From NCBI RefSeq assembly GCF_020509005.1, contig NC_063020.1:1488001-1552000 (forward strand): 64,000 bases of DNA, given 5' to 3'. The notes under the pieces were generated by a model, which worked only from the letters and a program-made list of their open reading frames with translations, had not been told where the DNA came from and made no database searches. Position numbers and translations under genes: made by a program. This document shows positions 5,262 through 53,681 of the stretch, piece after piece (position 1 is the first letter of the stretch; the number at the start of each line of letters is the position of its first letter). The stretch is from Fulvia fulva (lineage: Eukaryota; Ascomycota; Dothideomycetes; Mycosphaerellales; Mycosphaerellaceae).

Positions 5262-6341
5262 GGCAAGGAAGGAATCGTATTTAGCAAGCTAGCTACGAGA
5301 TAAGGTGACAAGTCTTAACCGCGCTTTGCCACTCATCTAGCACCACCGTGTAGCCTCGTTTCGAGAGGTTAGCCCGGAGCAAAAGCTTCCCTCTACGCCC
5401 TCCCTCCCTGTTTGCTCCTTAAGCCAATATCCACCTCTATAGGCCTAAGCCCTTTAGTGCTCTCTATTGACCGACATGCGCATCCGTCCTCTCGGGCTAT
5501 ATAGACAGTGTTAGCCGTCGCTGCTAGTGTACACTACGCCCTAGGTTTTGACGCCCTTCGCGTTACCGCAGCCTATCTCTAGAAAGCGGCCGTCTATGCC
5601 TCGCAGGTTTGCTCGGGGTACACACTACGCCGGGCAGCGTACTCCTTACGTTTCTACCTACTAACCAATATGAAGTTCCTTATTACCCTGCCCTCGATCC
5701 TCCCCGATTATAGAACTAATCCACTTGTATTATACGTCTTTTCCCCGTCCTAATAGCCGTCTTTTCCTTGCTTAGGCTATCGTCTTTTCCTCGTCGCAAT
5801 CTACTATATTAGACTAGGTACGTTATGTAGCGGGATAGGTAGTACCTTAGGCAAAACCCTCGTTCCTATACCGGGTGTTTAATAGGCCCTTATAGACTTC
5901 GTCGCGTGTCTACCTACCTACCGTATTGCCCGCTAGTAAACACTAGACTGTTTCGTAGTCCGCTCGACGCCGTCGTATAGTCCGCTTAGTTGTTATTCTA
6001 TAGTCCGCTCGTCTAATGTTCGTCGCTTAGCCCGCTCGGTTTACGGTCTCCGGAGGTGAAAATTCTATACTTATACTAGAGGTGTCCTATCGAGCGTATA
6101 GGCCACGGTTCCGCGCCCTTCTTATACGTAGAAAGAAGAGGGACTCGCTCCCGACACGAGTACACGCTCGTCGTATAGTTTTTATACCCGTTTTACTCGT
6201 AGTCCTCTATTCGCCGCGGCTTCGCCTACGTTACGCGCCCGTCGCGCCTACGACGCTCTAGCGTAAGAATACTTAGCTCTCTCGTAGTAAGACGAGAGGT
6301 TCGTAGCCGACACTACGTATAGGTGATTCTCGTCGTCGACT
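5262..6341 (-). repeat. W unit 1 (about 1080 bp non-coding unit fused to LINE2)
   Basis: This is a full-length W unit. Read in the LINE2 direction it starts GGTCGACGACG at 6341 and ends ...CCTTCCTTGCC at 5262, directly followed by LINE2 with no poly(A). No convincing ORF is present. It shares both exact ends with W2, W3, W4 and W6 but lies next to a different LINE family. RIP is intermediate. The right flank is Copia LTR sequence. The left TSD would lie left of LINE1 copy 1, outside the window. Confidence 0.85.
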
Positions 6342-6598
6342 AATAGTAGTTATATAGCTATATCTATTAAATAGGTACGAGTTACGTAGTAGTAGAAGAC
6401 GGCGGATTATACGAAAGACGAAGAAGGACCTAATAGAATAGCGTATATCTATATATAGTATCGCTAGTATTAGTATAGGTAGATACTAGGTGTCCGGATG
6501 TTTACTAGCCTATAGGCTAGTAAACCCTAGTTACGTAATCTAGTTATATAACACACCTATACCTATATACTTGACCTACGGCCTATATATTCTTAACA
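6342..6598 (-). repeat. 3' LTR (partial) of the Copia element
   Basis: On the minus strand the sequence starts TGTTAAGAATATATAGG at 6598, just after a purine-rich stretch (AAGTAGGAG, about 6599-6607) that would be the polypurine tract. It follows the end of the Copia pol frame. It contains a perfect 26-bp palindrome at 6500-6525. The LTR is cut at 6341/6342 by the W1-LINE2 insertion, so its other end is outside the window. The exact start is inferred from the TG and PPT context only. Confidence 0.6.
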
Positions 6599-6599
6599 C

Positions 6600-9269: not shown

Positions 9270-10852
9270 GATAGATAGATAGATTATTTATTCGCCTATT
9301 TTAGTGTCCTATAGCCTATGTAGGTCTCTCGCTATTTAGGTCTATTTATGTAGGTAGGAAACCTAATTAACGGATAAAAACCTCCTCGTCTTTGCCCTCC
9401 TCGTTCTTTCCTATCTTGTCCTTTCGTTCTCCTTCCTTTAGGGTACGCTAGTGTTATAGTTATTACCCTATAACTACCTTGCCCGTAACCCTAGTAATGT
9501 CCTCCTCTCGATTCCCTTTCTCCCTTCTGTTTCCCCGGCTCTTCTCTCTCTCTCCCTCCTCTCTATCTACCTTTCCGTTTCTACTACTAGGGAGAATTGC
9601 TCTAGGTAGTCCTCGTTAAGGATCTATCTTATCACTCTCCTTATATCTTGTCTATTCTAGATAATAGCCTAGTATTGCCTATCTCTTGCCTTCGCCCTCT
9701 ACTAGCTTCTCCCTTTTACCTACTTAGTACAGTTTAGTACTATATGCTCCGGGTTTTAGGATAGGTAGCTATCGGGGCAACGTTTAGAATCGTATCCTAG
9801 GACTCTTCTTTAGTACAAGTATACTCTTAGCCTAATGTGCTTAGAGCGAATCTAGATAGCTATACTTGCTTCCGCCCTCTTTAGGTCTTTATAGATAAGG
9901 TAGTTATACCTCCCGAAGGTCCTAGCCGCTAGTAGGGCTCCTAGCCTTACCGGTTTTTAGTTCTAACGCGTTTCCTATAGGTGACCTACGATCCTTTCTA
10001 CTTAGCTTTGCTTCTTTTTCACTTTGTCCCCTATATTAGCTTGCTCCCTTAGAGCTTCTCTCTATTCAAGGGCTGCTAGGATTTCCTATAATGTTTTTAG
10101 GTCTGCTTCCTTCTATAGGATTATATATAGCCGGTTAGGTCTTCTCCTCCTCTCCTACTAGGTTCTTATCCTTTAAGTAGCTACTTAGATAGTTCCCTAG
10201 GCTAGGTATACTGATGTCTTCTCTACGTATTAACACCTTATACCCTAGAGGTACTCCCTAATAGGGGCTGTACCTAATTCCATTTCTATTGTCCTATAAC
10301 GGGTTGACTTATATACCCCTAGTACTCTCTTTAGGTAGGCTACCTACGCTCTATTAAGGGGGTCCTTAATTCTCTTCGGGATGTGTTTTTCCGCTACCTA
10401 AATTGCTACTCTATATAGCATTACGGGCTTAATAATAGCCTTGTATATAGTCTAGGCCTTTGTAAAGGTCGCCCCCTAGGTTAACGTAGTAAGTCTCTCG
10501 ATTAATTATCTATTAGTGTCCGCTCTCGCTTACGCCTTCTTTACTTATAGTCCCTAGCTAAGTTTCGGGTCTAGCTATATCCTAAGGACTCTAAGTTCCC
10601 TTATAGGATAGGTCTCGAACCTCTAGATTTTTACTAGTACTACTAAGTTATATTTTGTCTTTACCTTACTAAAATAGATAAGTTAGTACTTGTCCGGTAC
10701 GAATTTTGCCCTATACTCTCTTGCCTACTTTTCGTATTATCTATATCTCTCCTCTAGGAGTGCGTAGTTTTCCTCTATAGACCCCGACTACGCTAGGATA
10801 TTTATATTATCTACGAACCCCGACACTAAGGTATTTACTATTTCTAGGAGTA
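9270..10852 (-). mobile_element. LINE3 segment 1: tail, 3' UTR, C-terminal domain, RT catalytic box
   Basis: This is the 3' third of a Tad-like LINE (family 3). It has a (GATA)n tail at 9270-9283 (TATC in its own sense), the 3' UTR with the shared hairpin at 9351-9390, the C-terminal domain, and the RT catalytic box near 10797-10820 (FVDD read as FVDN after RIP). It stops at 10852 where the W2-LINE1 chimera inserted. The reading frame resumes exactly at 20687, through LTLLLEIVN then GFVDN. It is heavily RIP-mutated. Confidence 0.88.
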
Positions 10853-11932
10853 GGTCGACGACGAGAATTACCTATACGTAGTATCGGCTACGAACCTCTC
10901 GTCTAGCTACGAGAGAGCTAAGTATTCTTACGCTAGAGCGTCGTAGGCGCGACGGGCGCGTAACGTAGGCGAAGCCGCGGCGAATAGAGGACTACTAGTA
11001 AAACGGGTATAAAAACTATCCGACGAGCGTATACTCGTGTCGGGAGCGAGTCCCTCTTCTTTCTATATATAAGAAGGGCGCGGAACCGTAGCCTATACGC
11101 TCGATAGGACACCTCTAGTATAAGTATAGAATTTTCACCTCCGGAGACCGTAAACCGAGCGGGCTAAGCGACGAACATTAGACGAGCGGACTATAGAATA
11201 ACAACTAAGCGGACTATACGACGGCGTCGAGCGGACTACGAAACAATCTAGTGTTTGCTAGCGGGCAATACGGTAGGTAGGTAGACACGCGACGATGCCT
11301 ATAAGGGCCTATTAAACACCCGGTATAGGAACGAGGGTTTTACCTAAGGCACTACCTGTCCCGCTACATAACGTACCTAGTCTAATATAGTAGATTACGA
11401 CGAGGAAAAGACGATAGCCTAAGCAAGGAAAAGACGGCTATTAGGACGGGGAAAAGACGTATAATACAAGTAGATTAGTTCTATAATCGGGGAGGATCGA
11501 GGGTAGGGTGATAAGGAACTTTATATTAGTTAGTAGGTAGAAACGTAAGGAGTACGCTACCCGGCGTAGTATGTGCCCCGAGTAAACCTACGAGGTATAG
11601 ACGGCCGCTTTCTAGAAATAGGCTACGGTAACGCGAAGGGCGTCAAAACCTAGGGCGTAGTGTACACTAGTAGCGACGGCTAATACTGTCTATATAGCCC
11701 GAGAGGACGGATACGTATGTCGGTTAATAGAGAGCACTAAAGGGCTTAGGCCTATAGAGGTAGATATTAGCTTAAGGAGCAAATAGGGAGGGAGGGCGTA
11801 GAGGGAAGCTTTTACTCCGGGCTAACCTCTCGAAACGAGGCTATACGGTAGTACTAGATAAGTAGGAAAGCGCGGTTAAGACTTGTCACCTTATCTCGTA
11901 GCTAGCTTACTAAATACGATTCCTTCCTTACC
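10853..11932 (+). repeat. W unit 2, fused to LINE1 copy 2
   Basis: Full-length W (1080 bp) in sense orientation: it starts GGTCGACGACG right after the TSD (10838-10852) and ends CCTTCCTTACC at 11932, directly joined to LINE1 RT sequence. Heavily RIP-mutated, like its host. No ORF. Confidence 0.88.
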
Positions 11933-12778
11933 CTCGATATCGTAGGAGCCTTCGACAACGTCTTATACTAAAGGCTAATATATATTCTATAGTAGAAAGG
12001 CATCCCCTAGTAGGTAACGACGTTCGTCTACTCCTTTCTCTAGGAACGGACGACATACCTAGTCCTAGGAAGGTACACGTCCGACCCGGTAAAGGTAGAG
12101 ACTAGAATACCTTAGGGATCTACTCTCTCCCCTATCCTGTTTCTAATATTTATGTCTAATCTAATCCCCCTACTCATCTCTCCGTAAACCTTAGTATCGG
12201 GGTTCGTAGACGACATAAACATCCTAGCCTAGTTAGACTCGACAGAAGAGAACTGTCGCCTCCTCGAAGATAGGCACAAGAAATGCGAGGAGTGGGCAAA
12301 GAAGCATAGTACCTAGTTCGCCCCTAAAAAGTACTAACTTATATACTTTAGTAAAGCGAGAACATACTATAATATAAAGGCGGCGGTAAGAATCTAAGGC
12401 TACGAGACAAAGCTATTAGCGGAGCTACGAGTACTAGGGATCTGGCTCGATCCGAAGCTAAGCTAGAATATATAGGTTAAGAAAGCCTAGAGTCGAGCAC
12501 AAGTTAACAAAGCCTCGATAAAGAGACTTACGGTATCTATATAGGGAGCAACATTCGACAAGGTAAGAGTAATGTATAAGGCGATCGTTAGACTAGCTAT
12601 GCTATACGGGGTATAGATTTAGGGAACAGGAGGCGTAGGCAAGCCGATCCCGAAACGGATAGAGCAACCCCTAAACAGGACATAGGTAGGCAACCTACGT
12701 AGGGTACTAGGCGTATATAAGACAACGTTAATAAGTACGGTAGAAATAGAGACAGGAACACTACTAATCGGCTAGTAC
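11933..12778 (+). mobile_element. LINE1 copy 2, 5' segment (RT palm)
   Basis: It begins inside the RT at the LDIAGAFDNV box (11933-11965). The FVDD box is near 12199-12212. It is interrupted at 12778 by the intact Gypsy element and resumes at 19752. It matches LINE1 copy 1 from base 1023. It is densely RIP-mutated with many TAG stops, and no gene function is possible. 12774-12778 (AGTAC) is the target duplicated by Gypsy. Confidence 0.9.
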
Positions 12779-12874
12779 TGTTACGGATCGGACACGACCG
12801 AAGGAGCGTCAGCCAATCAATAGCCCGCACTAATGACAGGCGCGGCCCACAGCTAGGCGGGCACAGCCGCTGCA

Positions 12875-12952
12875 GAGTGCCTGGAGTGCCTGGAGTGCCT
12901 GGAGTGCCTACGGACTTAGGCACAGTAGGCACGATAGGCACGGTAGGCACAG
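12875..12952 (+). repeat. Two 4 x 9-bp tandem arrays in the LTR U3
   Basis: Array one is GAGTGCCTG x3 plus GAGTGCCTA (12875-12910). Array two is TAGGCACNN x4 (12917-12952). They have the same period but different units and are separated by 6 bp. Both are repeated in the 3' LTR at 19421-19456 and 19463-19498. Such repeats in U3 often act as transcription-factor sites; that is inference here. Confidence 0.85.
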
Positions 12953-12974
12953 GAAAGGAATGGAATTTCCTTTG

Positions 12975-13016
12975 TATTTAGGAACGCATCGTACCCTTAT
13001 GGTTCGAGGCGTTCAA
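12975..13016 (+). promoter_or_regulatory. Putative Gypsy promoter: TATA-like box and RNA start
   Basis: TATTTA at 12975-12980 lies about 30 bp upstream of GAGGCGTTCAA (13006-13016). The latter is complementary to the primer-binding site and therefore a likely 5' end of the RNA if the element self-primes as Tf1 does. A 7-bp stem with a 6-nt loop (12954-12973) sits just upstream. Confidence 0.4.
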
Positions 13017-13205
13017 CTCACTGTTCAATATCACTGTTTGGAATACACCACAACCCAACCTCTGCCTCACTGCTGCTTGGTCTTTACAAGACGAGACAGC
13101 TACTGCTTCATCACTCTCCCTCACCTTCCATCGGCCACGAGACAAAACCCGATTGAGCTTGGTCTTCTGATCTTGTGATATCATTAGGTTATACCAAACC
13201 TAACA

Positions 13206-13217
13206 GCTTTGAACGCC
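13206..13217 (+). other. Primer-binding site, self-priming type
   Basis: GCTTTGAACGCC directly follows the 5' LTR. Its last nine bases (13209-13217) are complementary to GGCGTTCAA inside the LTR (13008-13016). I recognise no tRNA 3' end complement. In Tf1-group elements the 5' end of the RNA folds back to prime minus-strand synthesis, and this arrangement fits. There are three unpaired bases between LTR and match. Confidence 0.55.
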
Positions 13218-13224
13218 CTCAACG

Positions 13225-15225
13225 ATGGGAGATCGACAGAGTGACCGGGGAACACCCGCCCCCAGTGAAGCAAGCAGAGCCCGACGACCTCAGACCGCGA
13301 ACGATGCTATCAATGCCTTGGCTACTCATACAGGCAACGAATCCCTCAAGGTTGGCAAGCCAGAGTTCTTCTATGGCGACCGAGACAAGTTCGACACTTG
13401 GGTCTCTCAGATGGATATGTACTTCTTGTTCAACTCCATGACTGAGAACCTCAAGCCTATCTTTGCCACCACCTTCTTGAGAGGACGAGCACAGCATTGG
13501 GTCAAACCATTCCTTAGGAAATACCTGGATAGCAACGGAGAAGACAATGCTGACGGAGTCTTCAAGTCTTACAACCATCTCAAGCATGCTATGAAGAGCG
13601 TCTTTGGTGTCTCGAACGAGATTGCCACTGCCGTTCGTGTTATTCAGCACTTGACTCAGAAGACTTCCACAGCCGAATATGCTGCCAAGTTCCAGGAATA
13701 CGCGCAACTCACCGATTGGGACGACGAAGCACTTCAAGTCATGTATCGAAGAGGACTGAAGGAGCATGTCAAAGACGAGTTGATGAGGGACGGTCGGAAG
13801 ATCGATGGCTTAGGCGACCTAGTCCAAGTCACGATCGATCTTGACGACAAGCTCTACGAGAGAGCTATGGAACGACGATACGACTCCAAGGTATCTGGAA
13901 AGGCCGGATACACGCCAGGCTACGACAACCGTAACAGAGGTTTCAACGACAACTACAACAAACCCAAGGACAAGCCGTACTACGGACCACAGCCAATGGA
14001 GCTCGACGTTACCGAGAAAGGTCGCAAGATCAGGAACAGCAAGGGGAACAGAAGACCCCCGAGTTCAAGAGAAACACGAACTTGCTATGGATGCGGCAAA
14101 CCTGGCCACATAGCAAGGGACTGCCGCGGTAAGAATATGGTGCGCCGCGAACAGTTCAACATGATGCAACGACGAACTAGTAAATCTGAGAGCAGTGTTG
14201 AGTCTCTGGGAGACATCGACTATACTCGGAGAGTGGAGGAGAGAGCTAGCAATGGAAGCACGGAGCCTCTCCTGGACCCCTCACAAGGACGAGGAGGATG
14301 CCATGGGCAGCAAATGGTGGTCATTCCATTCGAGCTGCAGAACCAGCCACGACAGTTCAACATGATGGCACGAAGAGTCGACTACGAAATCGAGTCCGAA
14401 TCTCGAAATGGTCACGGAAGCCTTCATTGGCGATTCTGTTACCAAGACTCGTGTCAGGTTCACTACTCCGCGAAATCAGGAGCAGGGTATTGGCCTCAGC
14501 AACCGCGAGGAACCCTGGGAGCAACACATAGGCAAGACGCCACGCTCCAAGAAGTGGACATCGACGAATCCTGCTTCGACGACGATGGAAGCGACAAAGA
14601 AAATCAGGACCCAGGATGGAACGGATCGTGGTCACCGGAACCACAGGAAGAAAGTCAAGAAACCACCGGGCTGGATACCATCGAGGAAGACCAGGACCCG
14701 GAAGAATCAAGCGAAGAAGATTCCTCCGAAGGAGAAGAGAGCGACACTGACGACGACAACGAACAAATGACCTTCACCGTAGACGCACCGAAGAAGCTCT
14801 ACGACATGATAATTCACCTGCAACGAAGGCATGAAGAATTCCTACCGAAAATAGGCGGACGACGAATGCTACACTCCATTGAGTTTGACAAGACACTCGA
14901 CACCCTACGAGGCATGGCCTGGGGATACCCACTCATGGAAACGACCGAAAACCTAGCAACTGCTGTCACAGAGCGACCGCCGATAGGAAGTAGAATGATA
15001 GGTACCGGATACCTCACACCGTCAGGAACATTCGTATCAAACGAATTGCGCAACATGGTGCAGCACGCACGCGCACTCTACTCAGAAACGCAGAAGATCC
15101 AGGAACGTCATCGAGTACAGATGTGGACACAGAAAGGCTCGCGCCAGGTTCAAGCGGAGGCCTCGAGACACGAAGCACGACGTTCCACATACGAACAGGG
15201 AAAAGGATCAACTCCCCAGGAATGA
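13225..15225 (+). CDS. Gag of the intact Gypsy element
   Basis: A 666-codon structural protein that would form the virus-like particle and bind the RNA. The start ATG lies 19 bp after the LTR. Residues about 45-230 form the retrotransposon Gag helical domain (FYGDRDKFDTWV...FNSM; FLRGRAQHWVKP). A CCHC zinc knuckle CX2CX4HX4C lies at residues 287-300 (14083 onward). It is followed by a long, strongly acidic Glu/Asp/Ser tract (about residues 440-515), then about 150 further residues. It is longer than many Gypsy Gags because of this C-terminal extension. The stop TGA (15223-15225) overlaps a possible pol ATG (15222) as ATGA, and a slippery heptamer lies 18 bases upstream. No RIP damage. Confidence 0.95.
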   Translation: MGDRQSDRGTPAPSEASRARRPQTANDAINALATHTGNESLKVGKPEFFYGDRDKFDTWVSQMDMYFLFNSMTENLKPIFATTFLRGRAQHWVKPFLRKYLDSNGEDNADGVFKSYNHLKHAMKSVFGVSNEIATAVRVIQHLTQKTSTAEYAAKFQEYAQLTDWDDEALQVMYRRGLKEHVKDELMRDGRKIDGLGDLVQVTIDLDDKLYERAMERRYDSKVSGKAGYTPGYDNRNRGFNDNYNKPKDKPYYGPQPMELDVTEKGRKIRNSKGNRRPPSSRETRTCYGCGKPGHIARDCRGKNMVRREQFNMMQRRTSKSESSVESLGDIDYTRRVEERASNGSTEPLLDPSQGRGGCHGQQMVVIPFELQNQPRQFNMMARRVDYEIESESRNGHGSLHWRFCYQDSCQVHYSAKSGAGYWPQQPRGTLGATHRQDATLQEVDIDESCFDDDGSDKENQDPGWNGSWSPEPQEESQETTGLDTIEEDQDPEESSEEDSSEGEESDTDDDNEQMTFTVDAPKKLYDMIIHLQRRHEEFLPKIGGRRMLHSIEFDKTLDTLRGMAWGYPLMETTENLATAVTERPPIGSRMIGTGYLTPSGTFVSNELRNMVQHARALYSETQKIQERHRVQMWTQKGSRQVQAEASRHEARRSTYEQGKGSTPQE

Positions 15226-18200
15226 GCGACCGAAGGGAGTTATGCAACACAGAAAAGGCTCAAGCATCACCAACGACAACAGTGTTTCGAACCAAGATTA
15301 TCGTCAACGGGCACAAGACAGATGCCATGATAGATTCCGGAGCGAGCGGGAATTTTGCCTCCGAATCATTTGTTACAAGAAACAGGATCGCTACCTGTAA
15401 GAAGAAAGAGGGTTATGAATTGATCGCGGTAGACGGATCATCCTTACCCAGCGTGGAGCGCGAGACGATACCGCTACCACTTGCTATCCAACGGCACCAC
15501 GAGGAGATTACCTTGGATGTTACTGATATGGCCAGTCATGACATCGTACTAGGTATGCCTTGGTTGAGAAAGCACAACCCAGTAATCGACTGGAGAAGAG
15601 GAGTACTCACATTTAGGGAATGCGAATGCGTTATCGACATTCAGCCTGCGCAGTGGCAGCGTTCACTGGCAGATGAGGCAAGGAAACAGCTCAACAGGAT
15701 ACAGCTTGCGCCGACTAGAAGGACAGAAGAACCACCTTCGACCGGGACAGACACTGGCGTGGGGCCGCCGGGTCACGAAGTCACTGGAAGTGATGGAAGT
15801 AACGCACCATCGAAGGATACCAACATCTCAGAGTTGAGTATTCCCAAGGAGTATCGCAAGTGGTCGCGACTCTTTGAAGAGGAAAGAGGCAAGGACGCCT
15901 TACCTAAGCACCAACCATGGGATCACAAGATAAACATTCAGCCAGGGAAAGAGCCTCCATGGGGACCCCTATATCAAATGTCTGAGAAAGAGCTACAGAC
16001 CCTACGAGAATGGCTGAAGGAGAAGCTAGCCAAAGGATGGATACGACGATCCACCTCAAGTGCAGGAACTCCATGCATGTTCGTTCCAAAAGCAAACGGG
16101 AAACTACGACTCGTACAAGACTACCGAAAGTTGAACGAGATCACGATCAAGAACCGATATCCGCTACCCAACATCGAAGAAGCACAAGACAGATTAACCG
16201 GATCAGACTGGTACACGAAGATTGACCTACGAGACGCCTTCTATGCTATCCGAATGGCAGAAGGAGAAGAATGGAAAACCGCTTTCAGGACAAGATACGG
16301 ACTCTACGAATTCTTGGTCATGCCAATGGGATTGACCAACGCACCCGCATCCTGCCAGGACCTTGTCAACGAAACACTTAGAGACCTACTCGACGTATGC
16401 GTCATTGCTTACATGGACGACATACTGGTCTACACAAAAGGATCCCTCCAGGAACATACCAAGCAAGTTCAAGATGTGTTCGAACGACTCACGAAGTCCG
16501 GATTCAAGACAGCACCCGAGAAATGCGAATTCCACAAGAAAGAAGTCAAGTTTTTAGGCTTTATCATCAGTACAACAGGGATAACGATCGACCCTGCAAA
16601 GACACAGTCAATCAGAGAATGGCCAGAACCGAAGACAGTCAAGGATGTACAGTCATTCCTTGGACTCGCCAACTACAACCGGAAATTCATTAAGGACTAT
16701 TCAAAGACAGCAGCACCAATGACGATGCTTACAAGAAAAGACGTCAACTGGAAATGGGGAAAAGAACAGACCGAAGCGTTCAAAAGACTCAAGGAACAGT
16801 GCGCTTCAGCCCCAACGCTTCGACTATTCGATGGTAGCAAGGAAGTCCACATCGAGACCGACGCGTCTGATATGGCAATAGGCGCATGTCTAACACAGAC
16901 ACACGATGGGAAAAGACACCCAGTGGCCTATTATTCCCGGAAAATGACCACAGCGGAACAGAACTACGACATCCATGACAAGGAGCTTCTAGCCATTGTT
17001 GCCGCCATGCAACATTGGAGAGTGTACGTCGAGGGCCCACCGAAGTTAACGATTCTTTCAGACCACAAGAATCTCACGTACTTCACGACGACGAAGGAAC
17101 TTACCCGAAGACAAGCCCGCTGGTCGGAGCTGCTTGGGCAGTACAAGTTCGAAATCAAATACACTCCAGGAACAGAGAACGGCCGCGCAGATGCGCTGAG
17201 CCGAAGAAGCGATTACATGGAAGGAAAAGAACCAGTGCAACACAAAATACTTAAGACAAACCCCGACGGAAGTCTTAGTGCCAACACGAGAGAGTTCAAC
17301 AACATTGTACGAATCCTAAGCGACAAGGAAGAACAGTTCCCTATATCGCAAGGAAAGTACCAAGTACCAAAGGATCGAGAAGAAGAATGCATACGACAAC
17401 ATCACGACGAGCCAACATACGGACATCCTGGAACTTCAAAGACAGTCGACCTAATACAGCGCAGCTTCTCATTCCCACAGATGAGACTTAAGGTGCTACG
17501 CTACATCAAGAAATGCGTACACTGCCAACAAAACAAAGCTGCACGGCACGCGAAATACGGTCACCTACAGTTCAGGACACCACCAACGAAACCATGGGAC
17601 GAGGTTACGATGGACTTCATTACGAAACTCCCGAGGTCAAAGGATCGAATCACAGGACAAGCCTATGACATGATACTAGTCATGGTCGACAGACTCACAA
17701 AATATGCACACTTCATTCCTGCATCAGAAATATACACTGCAGAGCAGCTCGGATACCTCGTACTGGACAGATTGATCCGATATCACGGATTCCCGGAAGT
17801 ATTCATTACAGACAGAGACAAGCTCTTCACATCAAACTACTGGAAGACGCTCATGGGAACGATTGGAATCAAGCACAAGTTGTCAACAGCATACCATCCA
17901 GAGACGGATGGGCAAACGGAAAGAACGAACCAGACACTCGAGCAATACCTACGGCACTACATCAACTACGCACAAGACAACTGGGTTTCATTACTGCCAA
18001 TGGCGCAGATCGCACTGAACAACCACAAATCAGAGACAACTTCGACGACGCCATTTTATGCGAACTTTGGCAAGGACCCTAACCTATCCGGAACACCTGG
18101 ATCCCACCCACAGGCCGAGAGAGCAATCGTGACGACGGAAACTCTCAAGGAAGTGCACAAAGAAGCACGCAAGGCGATCGAAGATGCACAACAAAGACTG

Positions 18201-19290: not shown

Positions 19291-19309
19291 AAGCTCGGGA
19301 CGAGCTAAG

Positions 19310-19324
19310 CTAGAGAGGGGATGG
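19310..19324 (+). other. Polypurine tract of the intact Gypsy
   Basis: Purine-rich AGAGAGGGGATGG directly upstream of the 3' LTR, the normal site for plus-strand priming. Confidence 0.75.
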
Positions 19325-19751
19325 TGTTACGGATCGGACACGACCGAAGGAGCGTCAGCCAATCAATAGCCCGCACTAATGACAGGCGCGGCCCACAGCT
19401 AGGCGGGCACAGCCGCTGCAGAGTGCCTGGAGTGCCTGGAGTGCCTGGAGTGCCTACGGACTTAGGCACAGTAGGCACGATAGGCACGGTAGGCACAGGA
19501 AAGGAATGGAATTTCCTTTGTATTTAGGAACGCATCGTACCCTTATGGTTCGAGGCGTTCAACTCACTGTTCAATATCACTGTTTGGAATACACCACAAC
19601 CCAACCTCTGCCTCACTGCTGCTTGGTCTTTACAAGACGAGACAGCTACTGCTTCATCACTCTCCCTCACCTTCCATCGGCCACGAGACAAAACCCGATT
19701 GAGCTTGGTCTTCTGATCTTGTGATATCATTAGGTTATACCAAACCTAACA
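19325..19751 (+). repeat. 3' LTR of the intact Gypsy
   Basis: 427 bp. By eye it is identical to the 5' LTR, including both 9-bp arrays (19421-19456, 19463-19498). It is followed by the TSD AGTAC (19752-19756), after which LINE1 sequence resumes in phase (ATCCGGGG). Confidence 0.95.
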
Positions 19752-44496: not shown

Positions 44497-45327
44497 AATA
44501 GGAAGTAGATAGTTAAGGTAGTAAAGTCGGTAAAGGTCTCTTACTAGTAGTTTACGGGACCGTCGTCGTCGCTATTTTGAGTAGTAGATCGAGAAACATA
44601 ATAATAAACGAAGGGGCGATAGCGTCGTAAAAGTAAAGAGCGCCCTTAAAGGGCGGCGAACGAAGGGAGACGCGCGGAGCGACGACGCGCCCGGGAGAAA
44701 CGGAATACGGAGACTATCTACTATAACGACTATAATAACTATAAGCTACTAACTAGAAGAACTAGTATATAAAACACGGTATAGATACGGTAGAATATAC
44801 CGCGATTATATACGAAATTATAGCTACCCTCGCGAGCGCTAATCTACCCTACGAACGCGCGATCCGTAGCCTCCTCGAGAGCTTAGCTAAAGCAATCTAG
44901 GAGCTACTACGGGCGACGAAGGCGCTAGCCCTAGTAAAGGAAGTAATAAACGCGGACCTCCTACGGGAGATCTAGGCGCTAGGAAGAGCTAGGCCGGCAA
45001 TATATACCTAAGCGGCTATAGTAGCCGTAGAGTAACTAACGTACCGCGTTAGGCTAGTTTAGCGCGAGGTTACGATATATATAGACAACCCTAAAGAAAG
45101 AGAGCGGGTAGCGGTACTATCGTACTAACGCCTCGTAGAGTAGGCGCGCTAGGCTAGTGAATAAGACATTATTATAGCCTAGAAGCTAAAGAGTAGAGAC
45201 GTACGCTATACGCTCGTAACTATAGCGGGGAGACCGACGCTACTATAGAGCGTAGCCTAGGCGGTCGAGGTACTAAACGCGAAGAGCGTAGCGCCGGTTA
45301 CGCTAGTATACTAGGCCCTTATATATA
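44497..45327 (+). pseudogene. LINE5: orphan 5' end and ORF1 piece of another Tad-like LINE
   Basis: From about 44815 a long frame is open except for RIP stops. It shows Tad ORF1 features: ANLPYERAIRSLLESLAKAI, then VTIYIDNPKERERVAVL near 45065-45120 and a KLKSRDVRYTL segment near 45185-45220, matching the region before the HGVP box. It ends at 45315-45327 where LINE1 copy 3 begins. 44497-44815 is GC-rich in parts and may be the 5' UTR. It is different from the ORF1 of LINE1, 3 and 4. The rest of this element is not in the window. Confidence 0.65.
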
Positions 45328-48300
45328 GGTAGATAGATATTTCATTAAGCTGTTGTAGTGCCCTTTAGCCTTTATAGCTATACTATCTTGTTTTTGTATA
45401 TATAGAGGGGAAACCGTATTAGTAAAAACCCCTCCTCCTTCTCGCCTATCTTTTCCTCCTAGTTATCGTCTTAAATTTCCCTTATTAGGAGTACGCTAGT
45501 ATTATAGGCCTGCCCTAATAACTACCCTATCTACAACCCCCCTCGCTTCCGCCTCTTATCTATCTACTCCTCCGTCTCGCTCGCGAGGCTAAACTACTAG
45601 AGGTATCCCTACTATAGTATCTACCGAGAGATTCGGCGAATATTACCTTTGTCCCTAATAATTGACTTATAGTCTCTCCTTCCCGCTTAGTACCTCCAAT
45701 TTCCCCTACCTCTCGCCTACTACGGGCATCGTAGTAGTATATATTCTAGGTTTTACGATAGGTAGCTATACTAGTAGGCTAGGCTATAGATGTCTAGTAT
45801 ACGTCTCCTAAATAAGTAGGCCCTTAATCTAATATGTTCGGTCCTAATTTGGATCGCTATACTTGCTTCGGCCCTTATTAGGTCCCTATATAGCTAGTAA
45901 TTGTGTCTCTAGAAGGCTCGGAGCGCTATCGGGCCTATTGTCTTAGGGGGCTTCCTTTTCTAGTCCTACTCCTATAGGTAGCTCGCTATCTATTCCGCTA
46001 GGCTTTAGGTCTTAGCCTTACTCCCGCCGGCCTAGCGAATCCTACGCTCCTCCTCTTTTCGTGCTAGCTATTCGGTGCTTATCTATACGGCCGTAAAGGT
46101 AGTAAGGTCATCCTCTTTTTAGCTTGTCCTATATCCGGCCCCTCTCCGGTAGCGGCTTTCTATCTTATTCTTTACCTCCTAGATCGTAGTTTATACTCGG
46201 TAACCTATCGTCTTTGCCGCGTATTAAATTCTTATTCCCCGGATGTACTAGCCGATTAGTAGTGTTCCTATCTCTATTTCTACCGTGCTTATTAACGTTG
46301 TCTTATATACGCCTAGTACCCTACGTAGGTTACCTACCTATATCCTATTTAGGGGTTGCTCTATCCGTTTCGGGATCGGCTTGCCTACGCCTCCTGTTCC
46401 CTAAATCTATGCCCCGTATAATATAGCTAGTCTAACGATCGCCTTATATATTACTCTTGCCTTATCGAATATTGCTCCCTATATAGATACCGTAAGCCTC
46501 TTTATCGAGGCTTTATTAACTTGCGCTCGACTCTAGGCTTTCTTAATCTATATATTCTAGCTTAGCTTCGGGTCGAGCTAGATCCCTAGTACTCGTAGCT
46601 CCGCTAATAGCTTAGTCTCGTAGCCTTAGATTCTTACCGCCGCCTTTATATTATAGTATGTTCTCGCTTTACTAAAGTGTATAAGTTAGTACTTTTTAGG
46701 GGCGAACCGGGCACTATACTTCTTTGCCTACTCCTCGCATTTCTTATGCCTATCTTTAAGGAGGCGACAGTTCTCTTCTATCGAGTCTAACTAGGCTAGG
46801 ATGTTTATATCGTCTACGAACCCTAATACTAAGGTTTACGGAGAGGTAAGTAGGGGGATTAGATTAGACATAAATATTAGAAACAGGATAGGGGAGAGAG
46901 TAGATCCCTAAGGTATTCTAGTCTCTACCTTTACCGGGTCGGACGTATACCTTCCTAGGACTAGGTATATCGTCCGTTCCTAGAGAAAGGAGTAGACGAA
47001 CGTCGTTACCTACTAGGGGATGCCTTTCTACTATAGGATATATATTAGCCTTTAGTATAAGACGTTATTAAAGGCTTCTACGATGTCGAGGGATAGTAAG
47101 GACGCCGCTCGGTTCCTACCGTAGTACTAGAGGGTCTAAATTTACTCCGTAATTAGCTCTATTACTATTAGTGTCGATCGCTAGCTTCTTCCCCCTATCT
47201 ATATTACTAGGAGTACGTAGTTGTCCTCGGCTAGCTACGTAAGTCTCTAGGCTACTATCTTTTCTAGGACCTTCCCTATCGTATTTAGAAGTGCGATTAG
47301 TCTATACGACTTAGGCTAAGTATAGTCCTCCTTCTATAGCTTACGTAGTACTACTGTTATAGACTCTCTATACGGCTTCGGATAATACCCTAGCCGTAGG
47401 TACGCGGTAAATAGGTTTATAAGGCTCGGCGCGATCTCTTCTCTATACTCTTTTAGTAGTATATTTAGTATCCTATCTAGGCCTAGGGCTTTTCGTCCTT
47501 TTAGCTTACTTATAACTCCTATTACTATATTAGAGCTAACCGCCTAATCTATATCTAGGGGTTCCGGGTATATACTCGGGTCGATGTCCGTAAGGTCTAC
47601 CTCTACTTACGTCGAAAAGAAATAGTCGGCTAATACTTTTGCCTTACTCCGGGGCGTAGCCTAGGCAATCCCTTTACGGTCTACGATTAGAGGGAAGTAA
47701 GGGGTTTGTTACTCTTTAGGTAGTCGTACCTATTTAGTAAGTCTCTATATCTATTCCGGGTTTTCTATAACGAGCCCGATCGTCGCTCTCTAGTCCTATA
47801 GCTTATCGCGTCTTATCTAGGCCTTCTCCTCTTATATCGCGCGACAGTATTGCTCCTACGTCTCTTAGGTATGCTCCTTCGTCCACTATCGCCTTGCCCT
47901 TCTAGCCTCCCTTACCTTCGTAGAGCATTTAGGGGTCTAGAAGGCCTTCTACTACGTTAAGGGCCGGAGTAACGGCGTGTATTGTTCCGCTACTTACTAT
48001 ATAACCGAGGTAATCTATTCCGCTACTTGATCTAGCTAAGCTATCGTCTCGAGTTCTCTATACTATAGTAGGTTCGCTAATAGGAAGCCTCTTATATCGT
48101 CCTAGCGTGCCTTCTTCTACTTACGGCGTAGTTCGTTTACTAGCTCCTCTATCGCCTTTACCCCTAGCGTCGTTTAGATAGAGATATAGTCTATAGAGGC
48201 TTCTAGCGCGTAGTTCGGTCGGTATTAGACTAGTCTCTCTTTAAGTTCTCGTAATAGAAAGTATAGGTCGATCGTACTTATACTAGTACGGGCCTTCTAC

Positions 48301-50445
48301 GTCTCTATTCCCTTTAGTATTACTAAGGCCATTCCGTAGCGTACGGTTATGTCTAGTAGCTTTCCCCCTAGAAACGCGTACGGGGGAGTAAATTCGAGTC
48401 CCTACTATAGGTAGTAGAGGTTGAAGTCGCCGAGGAGTACTTACTTTATATCTTAGCTTAGGGTCCGCTCTAGGTAGGCGAGGGTTCCTAGTTCCCTACT
48501 CGTCCGACCCCGCGGTAGCGGGTTATAAACGTTATAGATCTAGATAGGGCCTTATGTCGTGTCGATCTAGATTAATGTTATGTCTCCTAGGTTGCCCTAC
48601 TACGGTAGTATAACCTTCTACGACTTAAGGTCTATAGTCTTACTTACGTATATATATATCCTCGGGATAACGCCTCGTTAGCCCGCGATTACGGTATAGT
48701 ATCTCCGGTTATTATAAGTAGCTAGGAGTCCTACGTAGGGGTTGATCTATAGTTCCTATACCGTAATAACGTAGTACCGTAGCGGGTCTAGCTCTTATAG
48801 AAAGTGGCGCTAGACCTTGTCCCTACTTTTGTTTACGTTATACTATACGATAGTAATGTCGTCGTATAGTATTATTCGTTATCCGTAAGGTCTATTTCCG
48901 TGCTGACTTACTATATCTCCTAAGCCTATATCTCGCTATCCGGCTAGCCCTAGGACCGCTAGGGCGCCCTAAAGATTCGTATTTAGCCTAGTTCGTTAGC
49001 GGCCCGGTTAAGGTGTCGAGGCCTACCGGGAGGTAGATACGTTTACGGTTAGGTTCCCTTATTCGTCTCTTCTACCCTCTTCCTTTTACTCGGCTCGAAG
49101 CCCTTATATACGGTAGGTCCCTCCTACTATCGTTAGGGGTACCTAGCTAGTATAGAGATCCTTACTTGTCTCGCTCGTTCTTATACTACTATTCTAGCTA
49201 GGCATTAGCTTAAATACGCTAGGTACCTTCTACTATAGTATATATACCTACTCTCCTTTTTTAGGCATTCCCTTCCCTAGTATAGGCCTACGTAGTAAGG
49301 ACACCTTAGGGTCTTCTCTCCGTATTTTAGGGCTATATAACCGTGCTATTAGTATTAGAAGTATTATAGGACCCTATAGCTACTCTAATAGATCTCCGTG
49401 TCTATTCTCTCGTAGTTCTAGAATAGCCTATTGTCTAGTATCTAGTTAGCTTGTTCCGCTGTCTCTACCTAAATAATAAGCGATGAATGCGTCTTTTCTC
49501 GGTCTACTATCTTGTATAGCTATACCGCCTTTGTTAGTCGTACTCCTAGGGAGGTGTTCTAGTTCTATGCTTAGAGGTAGGGAAGGTCTTCGACCTTAAA
49601 TGTCCTAGGGACCCCGTAGGCGATAACGGTATACTATTAGTAGGAGACTCGTACCGACTTCGCGACTTTAGTAGTCCACTCCTTATAGGTCTCTAGCTTT
49701 CGTCTATTAGACTCTTATACGGTAAAGAGTCTCACTACGCCTATTACCTCTACCCTCGCCCTAACTACCTCCTTTTAGCCGATTCTGTCGACAATCTCCT
49801 TGCTTATTAGGGCTACGATTTCTTGTTTCTCCGCCGGATTAGTAATATATAGGCGTACCGCCTTACTTGCCTTTAGAGGGGGTTGATTCTTACCTACTAC
49901 TACTATTACCTATGTCCTTAGTCTCTAGGCTGCCTTCTGTGTTGCTTATTAGATTGTCTTCGGGATTTGGTATAATAGCGCTTTTAGCGCTCCTAGTAGC
50001 TATACTATAGTGTTCTTATATACCCGGGTTAGGTGTTCGTTATCCCCTAGTAAGTTTTCCGCCTCCGTATATAGGGTCGTCTACGCTATATTGTTTATCG
50101 TTAGCCTCTACTTTCTATATAGTAGGCCTTAGCTTATGTCCTAGGTTTTTTCTTAGTTTATTCCCCGGTTTGACTCTTAGTATAGAATGTTCGTAAGGCT
50201 ATAGCTCTCGTTAGTTACTATCCTTCGCTACTATTCGGGGTCGTACTTCCTAATTAGGTAGTTGTCCTCCGTAACTCCGTAATTCTAGGGTCTACCTTTA
50301 GGGGAAAGGGACCTTAGTTTTAGGGTTTTTTATACTACGATTACGCCGCCGCTAGCGTAGGCGGGTCGCTACTACCTAAGTCGATTGCTTGTCTTAATAA
50401 GGGCTATCGATTAAATAGTCCTCGTCGATAAATCGGAGTCCGGAC
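45328..50445 (-). mobile_element. LINE1 copy 3: longest LINE1 copy, RIP-mutated
   Basis: About 5.1 kb. In its own sense: a 5' part near 50440, ORF1, endonuclease, RT, C-terminal domain, 3' UTR motif at 45400-45440, and a GATA tail at 45326-45334. No W unit is attached. The 5' end is approximate (50430-50460). A possible imperfect TSD is CCCTTATATATA on the left against CCCTTAGATATAT on the right. Its left neighbour is LINE5 and its right neighbour is Gypsy-B, so its target history is unresolved. Confidence 0.85.
45530..50300 (-). pseudogene. LINE1 copy 3 ORF1 and ORF2, RIP-broken
   Basis: ORF1 (about 50300-49000) has a VRLYITNPAEKQEIVALI-like stretch near 49800-49860, then an AYGVPRTFKVEDL-like box near 49580-49625, and Cys-rich knuckles near 49260-49400 with several Cys to Tyr changes. 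ORF2 has endonuclease GDFNLYYL near 48410-48440, the RT PILFLIFMSDL box near 46860-46890, FVDD near 46808-46822, and the C-terminal zinc finger near 45715-45790. All frames carry TAG/TAA at former Gln/Trp codons. Confidence 0.82.
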
Positions 50446-50476: not shown

Positions 50477-51690
50477 ATAGATAGATAGATAGATATTTCA
50501 TTAAGCTGTTGTAGTGCCCTTTGGCCTATGCAGCTATGCTATCTTGTTTTTGTATATATAGAGGGGAAACCGTGTTGGTGAAAACCCCTCCTCCTTCCCG
50601 CCTGTCTTTTCCTCCTCGTTGTCGTCTTAAATTTCCCTTGTTAGGGGTACGCTAGTGTCATGGGCCTGCCCTGATGACTACCCTATCTGCAACCCCCCTC
50701 GCTTCCGCCTCTTGTCTATCCACTCCTCCGTCTCGCTCGCGAGGCTAAACTGCTGGAGGTATCCCTGCTGTAGTATCCACCGAGAGATTCGGCGAATGTT
50801 GCCTTTGTCCCTAATAATTGACTTGTAGTCTCTCCTTCCCGCTTGGTGCCTCCAATTTCCCCTGCCTCTCGCCCACTGCGGGCATCGTAGTAGCATATGT
50901 TCTGGGTTTTGCGATGGGTAGCCACACTGGCAGGCTGGGCTATAGATGTCTAGTGCGCGTCTTCTGAACAGGTAGGCCCTTAATCCAATGTGTTCGGACC
51001 TGATTTGGATCGCTATGCTTGCTTCGGCCCTTGTCAGGTCCCTATATAGCTGGTAATTGTGTCTCTGGAAGGCTCGGAGCGCTATCGGGCCTGTTGTCTT
51101 AGGGGGCTTCCTTTTCCAGTCCTGCTCCCATAGGCAGCTCGCTATCTGTTCCGCTAGGTTTTGGGTCTTAGCCTTGCTCCCGCCGGCCTGGCGAGTCCTA
51201 CGCTCCTCCTCCTTTCGTGCTAGCCATTCGGTGCTTGTCTGTACGGCCGTAAAGGTCGTAAGGTCATCCTCTTTTTGGCTTGTCCTATATCCTGCCCCTC
51301 TCCGGTAGCGGCTTTCTATCTTATTCTTTGCCTCCTGGATCGTGGTTTGTGCTAGGTAACCTGTCGTCTTTGCCGCGTATTGAATTCTCATTCCCCGGAT
51401 GTACTGGCCGATTGGTGGTATTCCTGTCTCCATTTCTACCGTGCTTGTTGACGTTGTCTTGTATGCGCCTAGTACCCTACGTAGGTTGCCTGCCTGTGTC
51501 CTGTTTAGGGGTTGCTCTATCCGTTTCGGGATCGGCTTGCCTGCGCCTCCTGTTCCCCAAATCTGTGCCCCGTACAACATAGCTGGTCTGACGATCGCCT
51601 TATACATTACTCTTGCCTTGTCGAATGTTGCTCCCCATGTAGATGCCGTAAGCCTCTTTATCGAGGCTTCATTGACTTGCGCTCGACTCT
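50477..51690 (-). mobile_element. LINE1 copy 4: young, un-mutated 3' fragment in a W-W-LINE chimera
   Basis: The last 1.2 kb of LINE1, almost free of RIP, with (TAGA)n tail, 3' UTR and an intact C-terminal frame. It joins W5 at 51690/51691. The TSD AGTATCTTATATAG at 50463-50476 and 53682-53695 encloses LINE1 copy 4, W5 and W6 together. Target: Gypsy-B integrase region. Confidence 0.93.
50678..51607 (-). CDS. LINE1 ORF2 C-terminal fragment (309 codons open)
   Basis: Open from a Met at 51607 to TAG at 50678-50680; the frame is open up to the W junction. It encodes the region after the RT palm: the thumb (MYKAIVRPAMLYGAQIWG), a basic linker, and a zinc finger of CxC...H...C type (CQCGY, PEHMLLRCPQW, about residues 228-247), which in related elements aids RNA or DNA binding. 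It lacks the RT core and endonuclease because of the 5' truncation, so it cannot work alone. It is the least damaged LINE1 coding sequence here. Confidence 0.8.
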   Translation of the reverse strand: MYKAIVRPAMLYGAQIWGTGGAGKPIPKRIEQPLNRTQAGNLRRVLGAYKTTSTSTVEMETGIPPIGQYIRGMRIQYAAKTTGYLAQTTIQEAKNKIESRYRRGAGYRTSQKEDDLTTFTAVQTSTEWLARKEEERRTRQAGGSKAKTQNLAEQIASCLWEQDWKRKPPKTTGPIALRAFQRHNYQLYRDLTRAEASIAIQIRSEHIGLRAYLFRRRALDIYSPACQCGYPSQNPEHMLLRCPQWARGRGNWRHQAGRRDYKSIIRDKGNIRRISRWILQQGYLQQFSLASETEEWIDKRRKRGGLQIG

Positions 51691-52601
51691 GGCAAGGAAG
51701 GAATCGTATTTAGCAAGCTAGCTACGAGATAAGGTGACAAGTCTTAACCGCGCTTTCCCACTCATCTAGCACCACCGTGTAGCCTCGTTTCGAGAGGTTA
51801 GCCCGGAGCAAAAGCTTCCCTCTACGCCCTCCCTCCCTGTTTGCTCCTTAAGCCAATATCCACCTCCATAGGCCTGAGCCCTTTAGTGCTCTCTATTGAC
51901 CGACATGCGCATCCGTCCTCTCGGGCTGTACAGACAGTGTCAGCCGTCGCTGCCAGTGTACACCACGCCCCAGGTTTTGACGCCCTTCGCGTTACCGCAG
52001 CCTATCTCTAGAAAGCGGCCGTCCATGCCTCGCAGGTCTGCTCGGGGCACACACCACGCCGGGCAGCGTACTCCTTGCGTTTCCACCTACTAACCAATAT
52101 GAAGTTCCTTATCACCCTGCCCTCGATCCTCCCCGATCACAGAACTAATCCACTTGCATTGTACGTCTTTTCCCCGTCCTAACAGCCGTCTTTTCCTTGC
52201 TCAGGCTATCGTCTTTTCCTCGTCGCAATCTACCATGTCAGACTAGGTGCGTTGTGTAGCGGGACAGGCAGTGCCTCAGGCAAAACCCTCGTTCCCATAC
52301 CGGGTGTTCAACAGGCCCTTACAGGCTTCGTCGCGTGTCCACCTACCCACCGCATTGCCCGCTGGCAAACACCAGATTGTTTCGTAGTCCGCTCGACGCC
52401 GTTGCATAGTCCGCTCAGTTGTTGTTCTGTAGTCCGCTCGTCCAATGTTCGTCGCTTAGCCCGCTCGGTTTGCGGTCTCCGGAGGTGAAAATTCTGCACT
52501 CATACCAGAGGTGTCCTGTCGAGCGTATAGGCCACGGTTCCGCGCCCTTCTTACACGTAGAAAGAAGAGGGACTCGCTCCCGACACGAGTACACGCTCGT
52601 C
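51691..52601 (-). repeat. W unit 5, partial (911 bp)
   Basis: It lacks the first about 169 bp of W in LINE sense: it starts at GACGAGCGTG and ends at the standard CCTTGCC before LINE1. Un-mutated and nearly identical to W6. It is the middle part of the W-W-LINE chain. Confidence 0.92.
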
Positions 52602-53681
52602 GGCAAGGAAGGAATCGTATTTAGCAAGCTAGCTACGAGATAAGGTGACAAGTCTTAACCGCGCTTTCCCACTCATCTAGCACCACCGTGTAGCCTCGTT
52701 TCGAGAGGTTAGCCCGGAGCAAAAGCTTCCCTCTACGCCCTCCCTCCCTGTTTGCTCCTTAAGCCAATATCCACCTCCATAGGCCTAAGCCCTTTAGTGC
52801 TCTCTATTGACCGACATGCGCATCCGTCCTCTCGGGCTGTACAGACAGTGTCAGCCGTCGCTGCCAGTGTACACCACGCCCCAGGTTTTGACGCCCTTCG
52901 CGTTACCGCAGCCTATCTCTAGAAAGCGGCCGTCCATGCCTCGCAGGTTTGCTCGGGGCACACACCACGCCGGGCAGCGTACTCCTTGCGTTTCCACCTA
53001 CTAACCAATATGAAGTTCCTTATCACCCTGCCCTCGATCCTCCCCGATCACAGAACTAATCCACTTGCATTGTACGTCTTTTCCCCGTCCTAACAGCCGT
53101 CTTTTCCTTGCTTAGGCTATCGTCTTTTCCTCGTCGCAATCTACCATGTCAGACTAGGTGCGTTGTGTAGCGGGACAGGCAGTGCCTCAGGCAAAACCCT
53201 CGTTCCCATACCGGGTGTTCAACAGGCCCTTACAGGCTTCGTCGCGTGTCCACCTACCCACCGCATTGCCCGCTGGCAAACACCAGATTGTTTCGTAGTC
53301 CGCTCGACGCCGTTGCATAGTCCGCTCAGTTGTTGTTCTGTAGTCCGCTCGTCCAATGTTCGTCGCTTAGCCCGCTCGGTTTGCGGTCTCCGGAGGTGAA
53401 AATTCTGCACTCATACCAGAGGTGTCCTGTCGAGCGTATAGGCCACGGTTCCGCGCCCTTCTTACACGTAGAAAGAAGAGGGACTCGCTCCCGACACGAG
53501 TACACGCTCGTCGGATGGTTTTCATACCCGTTTTGCTGGTAGTCCTCTGTCCGCCGCGGCTCCGCCTACGCTACGCGCCCGTCGCGCCCACGACGCTCCA
53601 GCGTGAGAATACTTGGCTCTCTCGTAGCTAGACGAGAGGTTCGTAGCCGACACCACGTACAGGTGATTCTCGTCGTCGACC
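52602..53681 (-). repeat. W unit 6, full length (1080 bp), least mutated copy
   Basis: The best reference for W. Ends are GGTCGACGACG (53681 leftward) and CCTTCCTTGCC (52602). Features on the plus strand: CGTCTTTTCC three times at 53075, 53098 and 53121 (exactly 23 bp apart); TAGTCCGCTC at 53296, 53318 and 53341 with a fourth near-copy at 53368; and a perfect 7-bp hairpin with a 6-nt loop at 53619-53638. Only short frames (78 codons or less) exist, on both strands, with no recognisable protein. Likely derived from a non-coding RNA or a non-coding element. Confidence 0.92.

Follow-up and report, generated by a model that had tools for sequence, protein, structure and literature searches.

Introduction

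The closest described counterparts of the locus analysed here are the MINE elements of Magnaporthe, in which a sequence named WEIRD is joined to the LINE MGL (Gogvadze 2007, PMC2104539, which cites Fudal 2005). Excerpts of that paper describe 31 MINEs on MGL, together with Mg-SINE chimeras and the occurrence of a second LINE, Enigma, in chimeras, and they report that a free source gene of WEIRD had not been found in 2007. Within the literature outside subscription journals and supplementary files, fungal WEIRD-like chimeras appeared only in excerpts of PMC2104539 and of a later stress study (PMC3978060). In vertebrates, U6 has been described as a single acceptor RNA for several LINE clades (PMC4476161, in excerpt).

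Results

The unit W was compared across the window, that is, the whole 64-kb stretch of DNA under study, in which an earlier note had described a fixed, noncoding 1.08-kb unit at the 5' ends of LINEs from four families. W was present at each of the proposed places, with copies 90-100% alike; the stretch 51691-53681 proved to contain two joined copies, one of them incomplete. Six copies in five insertions are each set 5' of a LINE piece, and the 3' end of W adjoins the 5' breakpoint of a LINE in the same orientation in all five, as the note had claimed. The sense strand of W is the complement of 52602-53681, and its constant 3' end lies at 5262, 11932, 30990, 33411, 51691 and 52602. The insertions are made up of the following features:

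2785..5261, minus strand: LINE D piece (LINE2 of the earlier note), joined to W1; 98% identical to family D over 2479 nt
5262..6340, minus strand: W1, 5' end at 6340/6341; junction to LINE family D at 5262, donor AAGAAGGC|CCAGATC; 93.5% identical to W6
10839..10852 (5' copy) and 20673-20686 (3' copy), plus strand: target duplication of W2-LINE A; identical
10853..11932, plus strand: W2, joined at 11932/11933 to LINE A
11933..20672, plus strand: LINE A piece (LINE1 of the note), joined to W2; parts 11933-12778 and 19752-20672 by self-comparison
9270..30989, minus strand: LINE C (LINE3 of the note), in pieces 30989-30395, 23172 to about 20691, and about 10838-9270
30990..32064, minus strand: W3, joined at 30990/30989 to LINE C; donor found in L117
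32065..32078 (5' copy) and 9256-9269 (3' copy), minus strand: target duplication of W3-LINE C; identical
32318..32331 (5' copy) and 38120-38133 (3' copy), plus strand: target duplication of W4-LINE B; 13/14 alike
32332..33411, plus strand: W4, joined to LINE B
33412..38119, plus strand: LINE B piece (LINE4 of the note), joined to W4
45321..50426, minus strand: W-less LINE A, near full-length, RIP-mutated; alignment stops no more than about 25 nt short of the family 5' end
50477..51690, minus strand: LINE A piece joined to W5
51691..52603, minus strand: W5, initial 167 nt of W missing; joined to the W6 3' end
52602..53681, minus strand: W6, full length; opens the W-W-LINE insertion
53682..53695 (5' copy) and 50463-50476 (3' copy), minus strand: target duplication of W6-W5-LINE A; identical

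Several of these insertions have been broken up by others. The LINE D piece, whose reverse transcriptase (RT) domain lies within 3997-4770 (RVT_1, E 3.9e-37), is disrupted close to its 3' end by a copy of LINE A that spans 1 to about 2790; the LINE A piece joined to W2 is split by an LTR element (12779-19751); and LINE C is interrupted by two nested insertions, a repeat-flanked element (23173-30394) and the W2-LINE A insertion. The near full-length LINE A at 45321..50426, which lacks W, serves as an internal control. The four single duplications that the note had proposed around W plus LINE were all recovered, each 14 bp long, with 14/14 letters alike in three and 13/14 in the fourth. Among the testable full W copies, a single duplication encloses W and LINE in 21/23 (4/4 in the window, 16/18 in L009-L028, plus L008), the count leaving out W1, whose 3' flank lies beyond the window, and L002-L007 and L027_6995, for which the sequence examined does not reach the 3' flank. 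The duplication search was negative for the other two (L018 and L028), both of which are RIP-mutated.

The part of W common to all junctions stops at nt 1078 (...TTCCTTG). The two letters that follow are those of the LINE donor, or are off by a RIP-type C/T, in 106/107 junctions, the exception (L070) having no usable donor, and W is therefore 1078 nt long rather than 1080; the unit is noncoding, the longest open reading frame touching W being 78 aa. In mutated copies, nearly all differences from W6 are C>T/G>A changes, most of them at CpA/TpG as in RIP; behind the 90-94% identity in the window there is thus a single, nearly constant W. No Rfam model matched at gathering score anywhere in the window, and W itself gave only a chance-level lncRNA match (E 2.2), by which a known RNA family (snRNA, snoRNA, ribozyme, group I/II intron) was ruled out. 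Folding was no better than that of shuffles, with z of +1.2 for the first 200 nt and +2.3 for the last 980 nt. W was also rejected as a SINE, given that it ends in TTCCTTG at internal LINE sites and that the (TCTA)n end is found only on the LINE part. An exact W 30-mer was absent from viral_contigs and genome_contigs, and W had no match in plasmids, collections of which none holds fungal genomes as such.

Across the 67-Mb genome, a 45-mer of W was counted at 425 places. The 3' junctions were tabulated for the 100 exact copies listed of these 425: 98 join a LINE and two join another W. The partners among these 100 belong to families A-D, which bears out the four families of the earlier note, and to a fifth family in one copy. 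The copies read were not mostly flanked by unrelated DNA, nor was W in them a 5' untranslated region of full-length LINEs of one family. Among them there was no complete free W, and a source locus of W was not found; a duplicated W fragment (L016_1560) is not followed by a LINE. W is complete at its 5' end (W nt 1-2) in 31/34 free 5' ends. Exact W lies upstream and in the same sense at 58/203 exact LINE 3' ends, other arrangements accounting for 8/203, and on contigs C1-C3 W is carried by 28/58 LINE A insertions whose 3' marker is unmutated.

The 107 junctions fall on 68 distinct sites, of which 67 are usable, RIP variants of one site being merged. W runs through nt 1078 in 107/107 junctions with donor, and the LINE part that follows starts at RY|C in 56/67 distinct sites and 89/106 junctions, against a background of about 6%. 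The RY of this motif is left out of the chimera. The first four LINE letters equal those of the donor exactly in 95/107 junctions and are one RIP-type C/T off in 11, and no letters are inserted at the junctions (106/107), L070 being without a usable donor in both counts. Breakpoints range from the 5' end of the element to a point some 0.5 kb short of its 3' end. Departures from RYC occur at 11/67 sites, including a family D hotspot with six junctions. The RY|C site rule is new here, and no such rule was reported in the literature outside subscription journals and supplementary files. CC at most junctions had hinted at microhomology between the LINE and the last letters of W, but those letters are the donor's, and G at donor -1, which would lengthen the pairing with the W end, occurs at 0/67 sites; the idea was therefore dropped. 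Hairpins at the break were likewise rejected: in families A, B and D, RYC sites that carry a junction and those that do not had mean fold energies within one standard deviation of each other. Pairing of W with the break regions of family A was slightly stronger than random (-33.6 vs -30.6, sd 5.0).

Discussion

The arrangement found here is MINE-like, as the earlier note had proposed: a 1.1-kb noncoding, full-length 5' part, a 5'-truncated LINE 3' part in the same orientation, duplications of 10-20 bp, shared breakpoints, a three-part element and no solo copy found are the features in common with MINEs as excerpted from PMC2104539. By that comparison, the W-LINE system works like MINE but is larger in scale and involves more LINE families: what sets it apart are the 425 W 45-mer places, the five LINE families, the W-W-LINE elements and the share of W among LINE A insertions on the three contigs. 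The breakpoint motif is published for MINE as GCC*A/U (PMC2104539, in excerpt), and the W junctions are not in that register; with the boundary moved by one nucleotide, however, the MINE table excerpted from that paper gives RY|C at 10/13, compared with 56/67 here. The sequence comparison with WEIRD that the note had suggested gave no support for homology, W matching the three published 20-nt MINE primers (two of them in WEIRD), which were the only sequence compared, no better than shuffled W did. The use of W by several LINE families was said to extend the MINE model. The families are confirmed, but the extension is less new than supposed, as U6 has been published as an acceptor RNA used by several LINE families (PMC4476161, in excerpt) and the Magnaporthe chimeras include a second LINE, Enigma (PMC2104539, in excerpt).

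Chimeras of U6 with LINE-1, and of snRNAs with LINEs, as excerpted from PMC4476161 and PMC13174262, resemble those described here in that a full-length RNA stands at the LINE 5' end in the same sense, with target duplications and several LINE clades. However, U6 is a known short RNA, whereas W is 1.08 kb long, has no Rfam family and no gene found, and the excerpts of the two papers name no RY|C-like rule for U6 chimeras. Template jumps in vitro likewise give a continuous cDNA across two separate templates with little pairing, but they work best with a 1-2 nt overhang complementary to the acceptor 3' end, whereas the W junctions have no inserted letters and show a donor-site motif.

We consider it probable, at roughly 80%, that W is the DNA copy of a noncoding RNA of about 1078 nt whose 3' end became joined to LINE 5' ends during LINE retrotransposition; the transcription of W, the 3' end of its RNA and its copying are what we infer from the DNA. 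The LINE endonuclease and RT would begin the usual target-primed copying from the (TCTA)n end of the LINE RNA, and this copying would end at an RY|C site, through either an RT stop or a cut template. The cDNA would then pass by an end-to-end jump onto the 3' end of a W RNA close by and reach the W 5' end, whereupon the insertion would be completed. We give about even odds that the joining step is an RT jump, as the earlier note had supposed. The MINE-like structure and the single insertion events of the note's reading are supported; for the joining itself, ligation of the RNAs ahead of reverse transcription is about as good a fit, and the donor motif has two uncopied bases.

According to this latter explanation, which we regard as a serious though less probable candidate, a host endonuclease cuts the LINE RNA at RY|C, an RNA ligase adds the 3' end of W RNA, and the chimera is copied in a single LINE event. 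Because RY is left uncopied, cutting and ligation explains the site at least as well as an RT jump: the motif spans both sides of the break. The absence of inserted letters also favors ligation, as does the lack of G at donor -1, which is contrary to an annealing-driven switch. In addition, one LINE B without W but with a target duplication (L010) has the same first nucleotide as two copies capped by W, and RNA ligation has been considered alongside template switching for human U6/LINE-1 (PMC13174262, in excerpt). However, no nuclease of such specificity was identified here, RT stops may also depend on template bases just ahead, and W-less truncated LINEs with a duplication (in L018 and at window position 7893) start at sites that are not RYC. 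It is rather unlikely that the chimeras are themselves mobile families in which each breakpoint arose once and then multiplied. Such families would account for 107 junctions on only 68 sites, for the nine occurrences of the A1158 junction in the genome and for the rare W variant common to its copies L084 and L090; the B1751 pair shows no W difference. Yet both beta and non-beta W are joined at three shared breakpoints (A1158, A1468 and A-2, the last in L111 and L042), copies at A1626 and A541 differ at W site 569, and L009 and L023 carry private differences. Identical LINE nucleotides are thus joined to different W haplotypes in separate copies, and each of three haplotypes is found on two or three families (alpha and beta in A and B; gamma in A, B and C), which indicates that W-LINE joining recurs.

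That W should be the 5' untranslated region of one LINE family, the other chimeras being recombinants or internal deletions, is very improbable. W does lie on the 5' side of LINEs, and its partner in L070 is a full-length LINE D, met at or close to the 5' end. However, full-length LINE A copies (L012, L112 and L113) have their own 5' end and no W, exact W is found on 0/14 full-length LINE A insertions on contigs C1-C3, two LINE D copies (L114 and L115) begin without W, and the same W haplotypes are present in families whose RT proteins are 47-66% identical. Even less credible is that independent insertions or DNA recombination set W beside the LINEs; the locus is indeed a nest of insertions, but the single duplications enclose W and LINE together, and the junctions are exact and in one orientation.

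The recurrent joining of W to LINEs may have a further meaning, which we put forward tentatively and consider doubtful as a whole. W could be a selfish RNA without a free gene that spreads solely by capping the 5' ends of inserted copies of other elements, its RNA coming from W-LINE chimeras and reaching several LINE families by site-specific RY|C joining, a rule common to this genome and Magnaporthe; the "random" template switching of fungi would then be a sequence-specific joining of RNAs, possibly by cutting and ligation.

New beyond the earlier note are the RY|C rule, repeated joining at single nucleotides, the haplotypes common to several families and the share of W among LINE insertions. 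On three contigs, one and the same foreign RNA sits on about half of the LINE A insertions whose 3' marker is unmutated; with this share and hundreds of junctions in one genome, the joining step is open to statistics and to culture work. With a site rule to which published Magnaporthe junctions also conform, the old idea of pausing at hot spots becomes a test of RT jump versus RNA ligation, and the 14-contig assembly allows a search for the missing source gene of the acceptor RNA.

The LINE partners of W encode RVT_1; in family A there is an Exo_endo_phos domain as well. The named relatives of the LINE A RT among the best matches listed are from Stemphylium, Passalora fulva and Podosphaera.

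W copies and their insertions

When W was compared with the window, every copy proposed in the earlier note was borne out. The sense strand of W is the complement of 52602-53681, the reference copy W6, and here W contains several short internal repeats, GAGCGGACTA-like, as well as three GGAAAAGACG-like units, all seen by eye. The other copies differ from W6 almost only by C>T/G>A changes, mostly at CpA/TpG, with 0-6 transversions in 34 ungapped rows (a set that includes W6 and a copy that appears twice), a pattern which points to a single, nearly constant W that is used and is afterwards mutated by RIP. The claim that a single target duplication encloses W plus LINE was confirmed in four window insertions (W2-A, W3-C, W4-B and W6-W5-A), with a duplication of 14 bp that in two of them spans later nested insertions; the 3' flank of W1 lies outside the window, and W1 is hence not among the four.

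Partners of W in the genome

In the 67-Mb assembly of 14 contigs that contains the window, a 45-mer of W was found at 425 places (at most 3 mismatches) and 45-mers of the LINE 3' regions at 271 (A), 555 (B), 286 (D) and 182 (C) places, rough counts that vary with the RIP load of each 45-mer. The 3' junction was read at all 100 exact W places listed, which lie on contigs C1-C4 (five in loci L003-L007, 20 in L009-L028 and 75 in L029-L103). Eleven further junctions brought the total to 111, a sample biased towards young copies on four contigs; the window contributed six of the eleven, L002 and L008 one each, and older copies within L016 and L027 the other three. Searching the genome for the 3' partners of W, as the earlier note had suggested, gave A 37, B 34, D 17, C 9, a fifth family 1 and W 2 at the 100 listed places. 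Over the 111 junctions the partners as assigned were A 41, B 37, D 18, C 11 (L049 included), W 3 and none 1. The W-W junctions are those of the window, L021 and L077, the second W of L077 being read short of its end. The partnerless W (L016_1560) is one of two tandem W-fragment copies and is outside the 100 listed places; L016:210-2232 has two copies of a 3' piece of W (nt 408-1080) at a distance of 1350 bp, each with an identical upstream flank, and LINE A follows the first of them only.

L049, assigned to C, represents the fifth LINE family, since its adjoining stretch encodes an RT 41-49% identical to those of the four families; this family, seen in L049 and L119 (C2:1.63 Mb), is likewise joined to W. 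Three of the rows assigned to C (L037-L039) appear to be a single insertion that was duplicated. At C1:8.826-8.836 Mb, these copies stand in a row about 4.6-4.7 kb apart with an identical W-C junction, and one LINE C segment is repeated in a row at the same spacing, about 4.6-4.7 kb, in C7:168480-178393. In both rows, an inserted element looks to have been duplicated in tandem.

LINE A, about 5.1 kb long, has an ORF1 whose zinc-knuckle match is weak and below threshold, and an ORF2 that encodes endonuclease and RT domains. No W was found at the 5' end of full-length LINE A in the three copies read (L012, L112 and L113). Among 58 exact A 3' ends on C1-C3, 14 had a full-length 5' end, 28 an exact W and 16 neither, and none had both; the 16 may be W-less truncations or carry a mutated W. 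An exact W lay upstream in the same sense at 15/68 (B), 5/16 (C) and 10/61 (D) exact 3' ends, and all other W/LINE arrangements within 6.5 kb made up 8 of 203 exact 3' ends in the four families.

A sequence rule at the LINE breakpoints

The end of W was set at nt 1078 (TTCCTTG, or TTCCTTA by RIP). A donor LINE or W for comparison was available for 107 of the 111 junctions (none for L016_1560, L027_6995, L049 and L078), which represent 68 different sites when sorted by family and position. The donor of L070 cannot be aligned, and without this junction there are 67 sites and 106 junctions. At the 67 sites the donor had a purine at −2 in 61, a pyrimidine at −1 in 67, C at +1, where the LINE part begins, in 60, and a pyrimidine at +2 in 59. 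The resulting RY|C motif was present at 56/67 distinct sites (89/106 by junction) and at 33 of the 37 sites with donors identical to the LINE part of the junction, against a background of 5.7-6.3% in the four LINE references; with the boundary shifted one to three letters, RYC remained in 0-4 of 71 rows.

RYC alone is not sufficient, because 36 family A junctions are concentrated on 17 sites, compared with about 33 expected under equal use of the 203 reference RYC sites. In A (9 junctions), B (5) and D (6), families whose DNA is about 65-69% alike, 20 of the 107 junctions lie 3-6 nt upstream of one shared GAC codon within an LDI(A/S)GAFD stretch, as translated by hand; the D site here, CTC|TC, is not RYC. 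Six candidate W-less truncated LINEs were found, three with a target duplication. A target-duplicated, W-less LINE B on the minus strand of L010 starts at B 3344, a breakpoint also used in the W-capped L025 and L061, and the start sites of target-duplicated, W-less L018 and window 7893 are not RYC.

Recurrence and mechanism of joining

Three W haplotypes are defined by variable sites among 18 young copies in which W is nearly complete: alpha (569A; in A and B), beta (733G, 895C; in A and B) and gamma (109C, 111A, 314G; in A, B and C). Eleven copies at shared breakpoints were compared over 171 W letters. At LINE A site 1158, L009, L023, L084 and L090 carry a beta W, L029 and L088 a non-beta W; at site 1468, L003 is non-beta and L103 beta; at site −2, L111 is beta and L042 non-beta. 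Because different W haplotypes occur at identical LINE sites, most of the testable breakpoint sharing reflects recurrent joining rather than copying of one chimera. L084 and L090 have a rare W variant in common, the B 1751 pair (L012, L071) showed no W difference at the sites compared, the differences at A 1626 and 541 depend on site 569, where RIP may have acted, and at A 1124 the W of one of two copies was read.

There is good support for one LINE-driven insertion event in which two or three RNA sequences were joined end to end. Such joining is usually read as an RT jump (MINE, R2 in vitro), and the LINE RT would then stop at RY|C; alternatively, a nuclease might cut at RY|C, with a jump or ligation to follow. 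The rule fits an RT stop or a nuclease cut alike. Uncopied bases matter, there are no inserted letters and pairing with the end of W is not favoured. We give the RT jump a probability of about 0.5 as the joining step and consider RNA ligation a possible but less probable one.

The W-LINE arrangement is that of the Magnaporthe MINE chimeras. In the 13 distinct junctions of the representative Table 3 of PMC2104539, RYC appears in 10 once the boundary is moved one letter to the left of its printed position, a shift picked after the motif had been seen here, and in 0 with the printed boundary or with a move of two or three letters; the RY|C rule is likely to be present in Magnaporthe too. A second LINE is named for Magnaporthe in that paper, and several LINE families are known to use one RNA, U6 (PMC4476161). 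New beyond MINE are the scale, the number of LINE partners, the W-W-LINE elements, the W haplotypes common to several families, the repeated joining at one and the same nucleotide and the RY|C rule.

Other elements in the window

12779-19751, Gypsy-type LTR element inside the LINE A of W2, with identical 427-bp ends
23173-30394, 53778-56710 and 56718-64000, three stretches that are related and diverged (71-76% alike)

The LTR element has overlapping gag and pol frames of 666 and 1200 aa, with a chromodomain, and looks very recent. Two of the three related stretches are bounded by LTR-like direct repeats of about 140-185 bp, and one of those two cuts LINE C.
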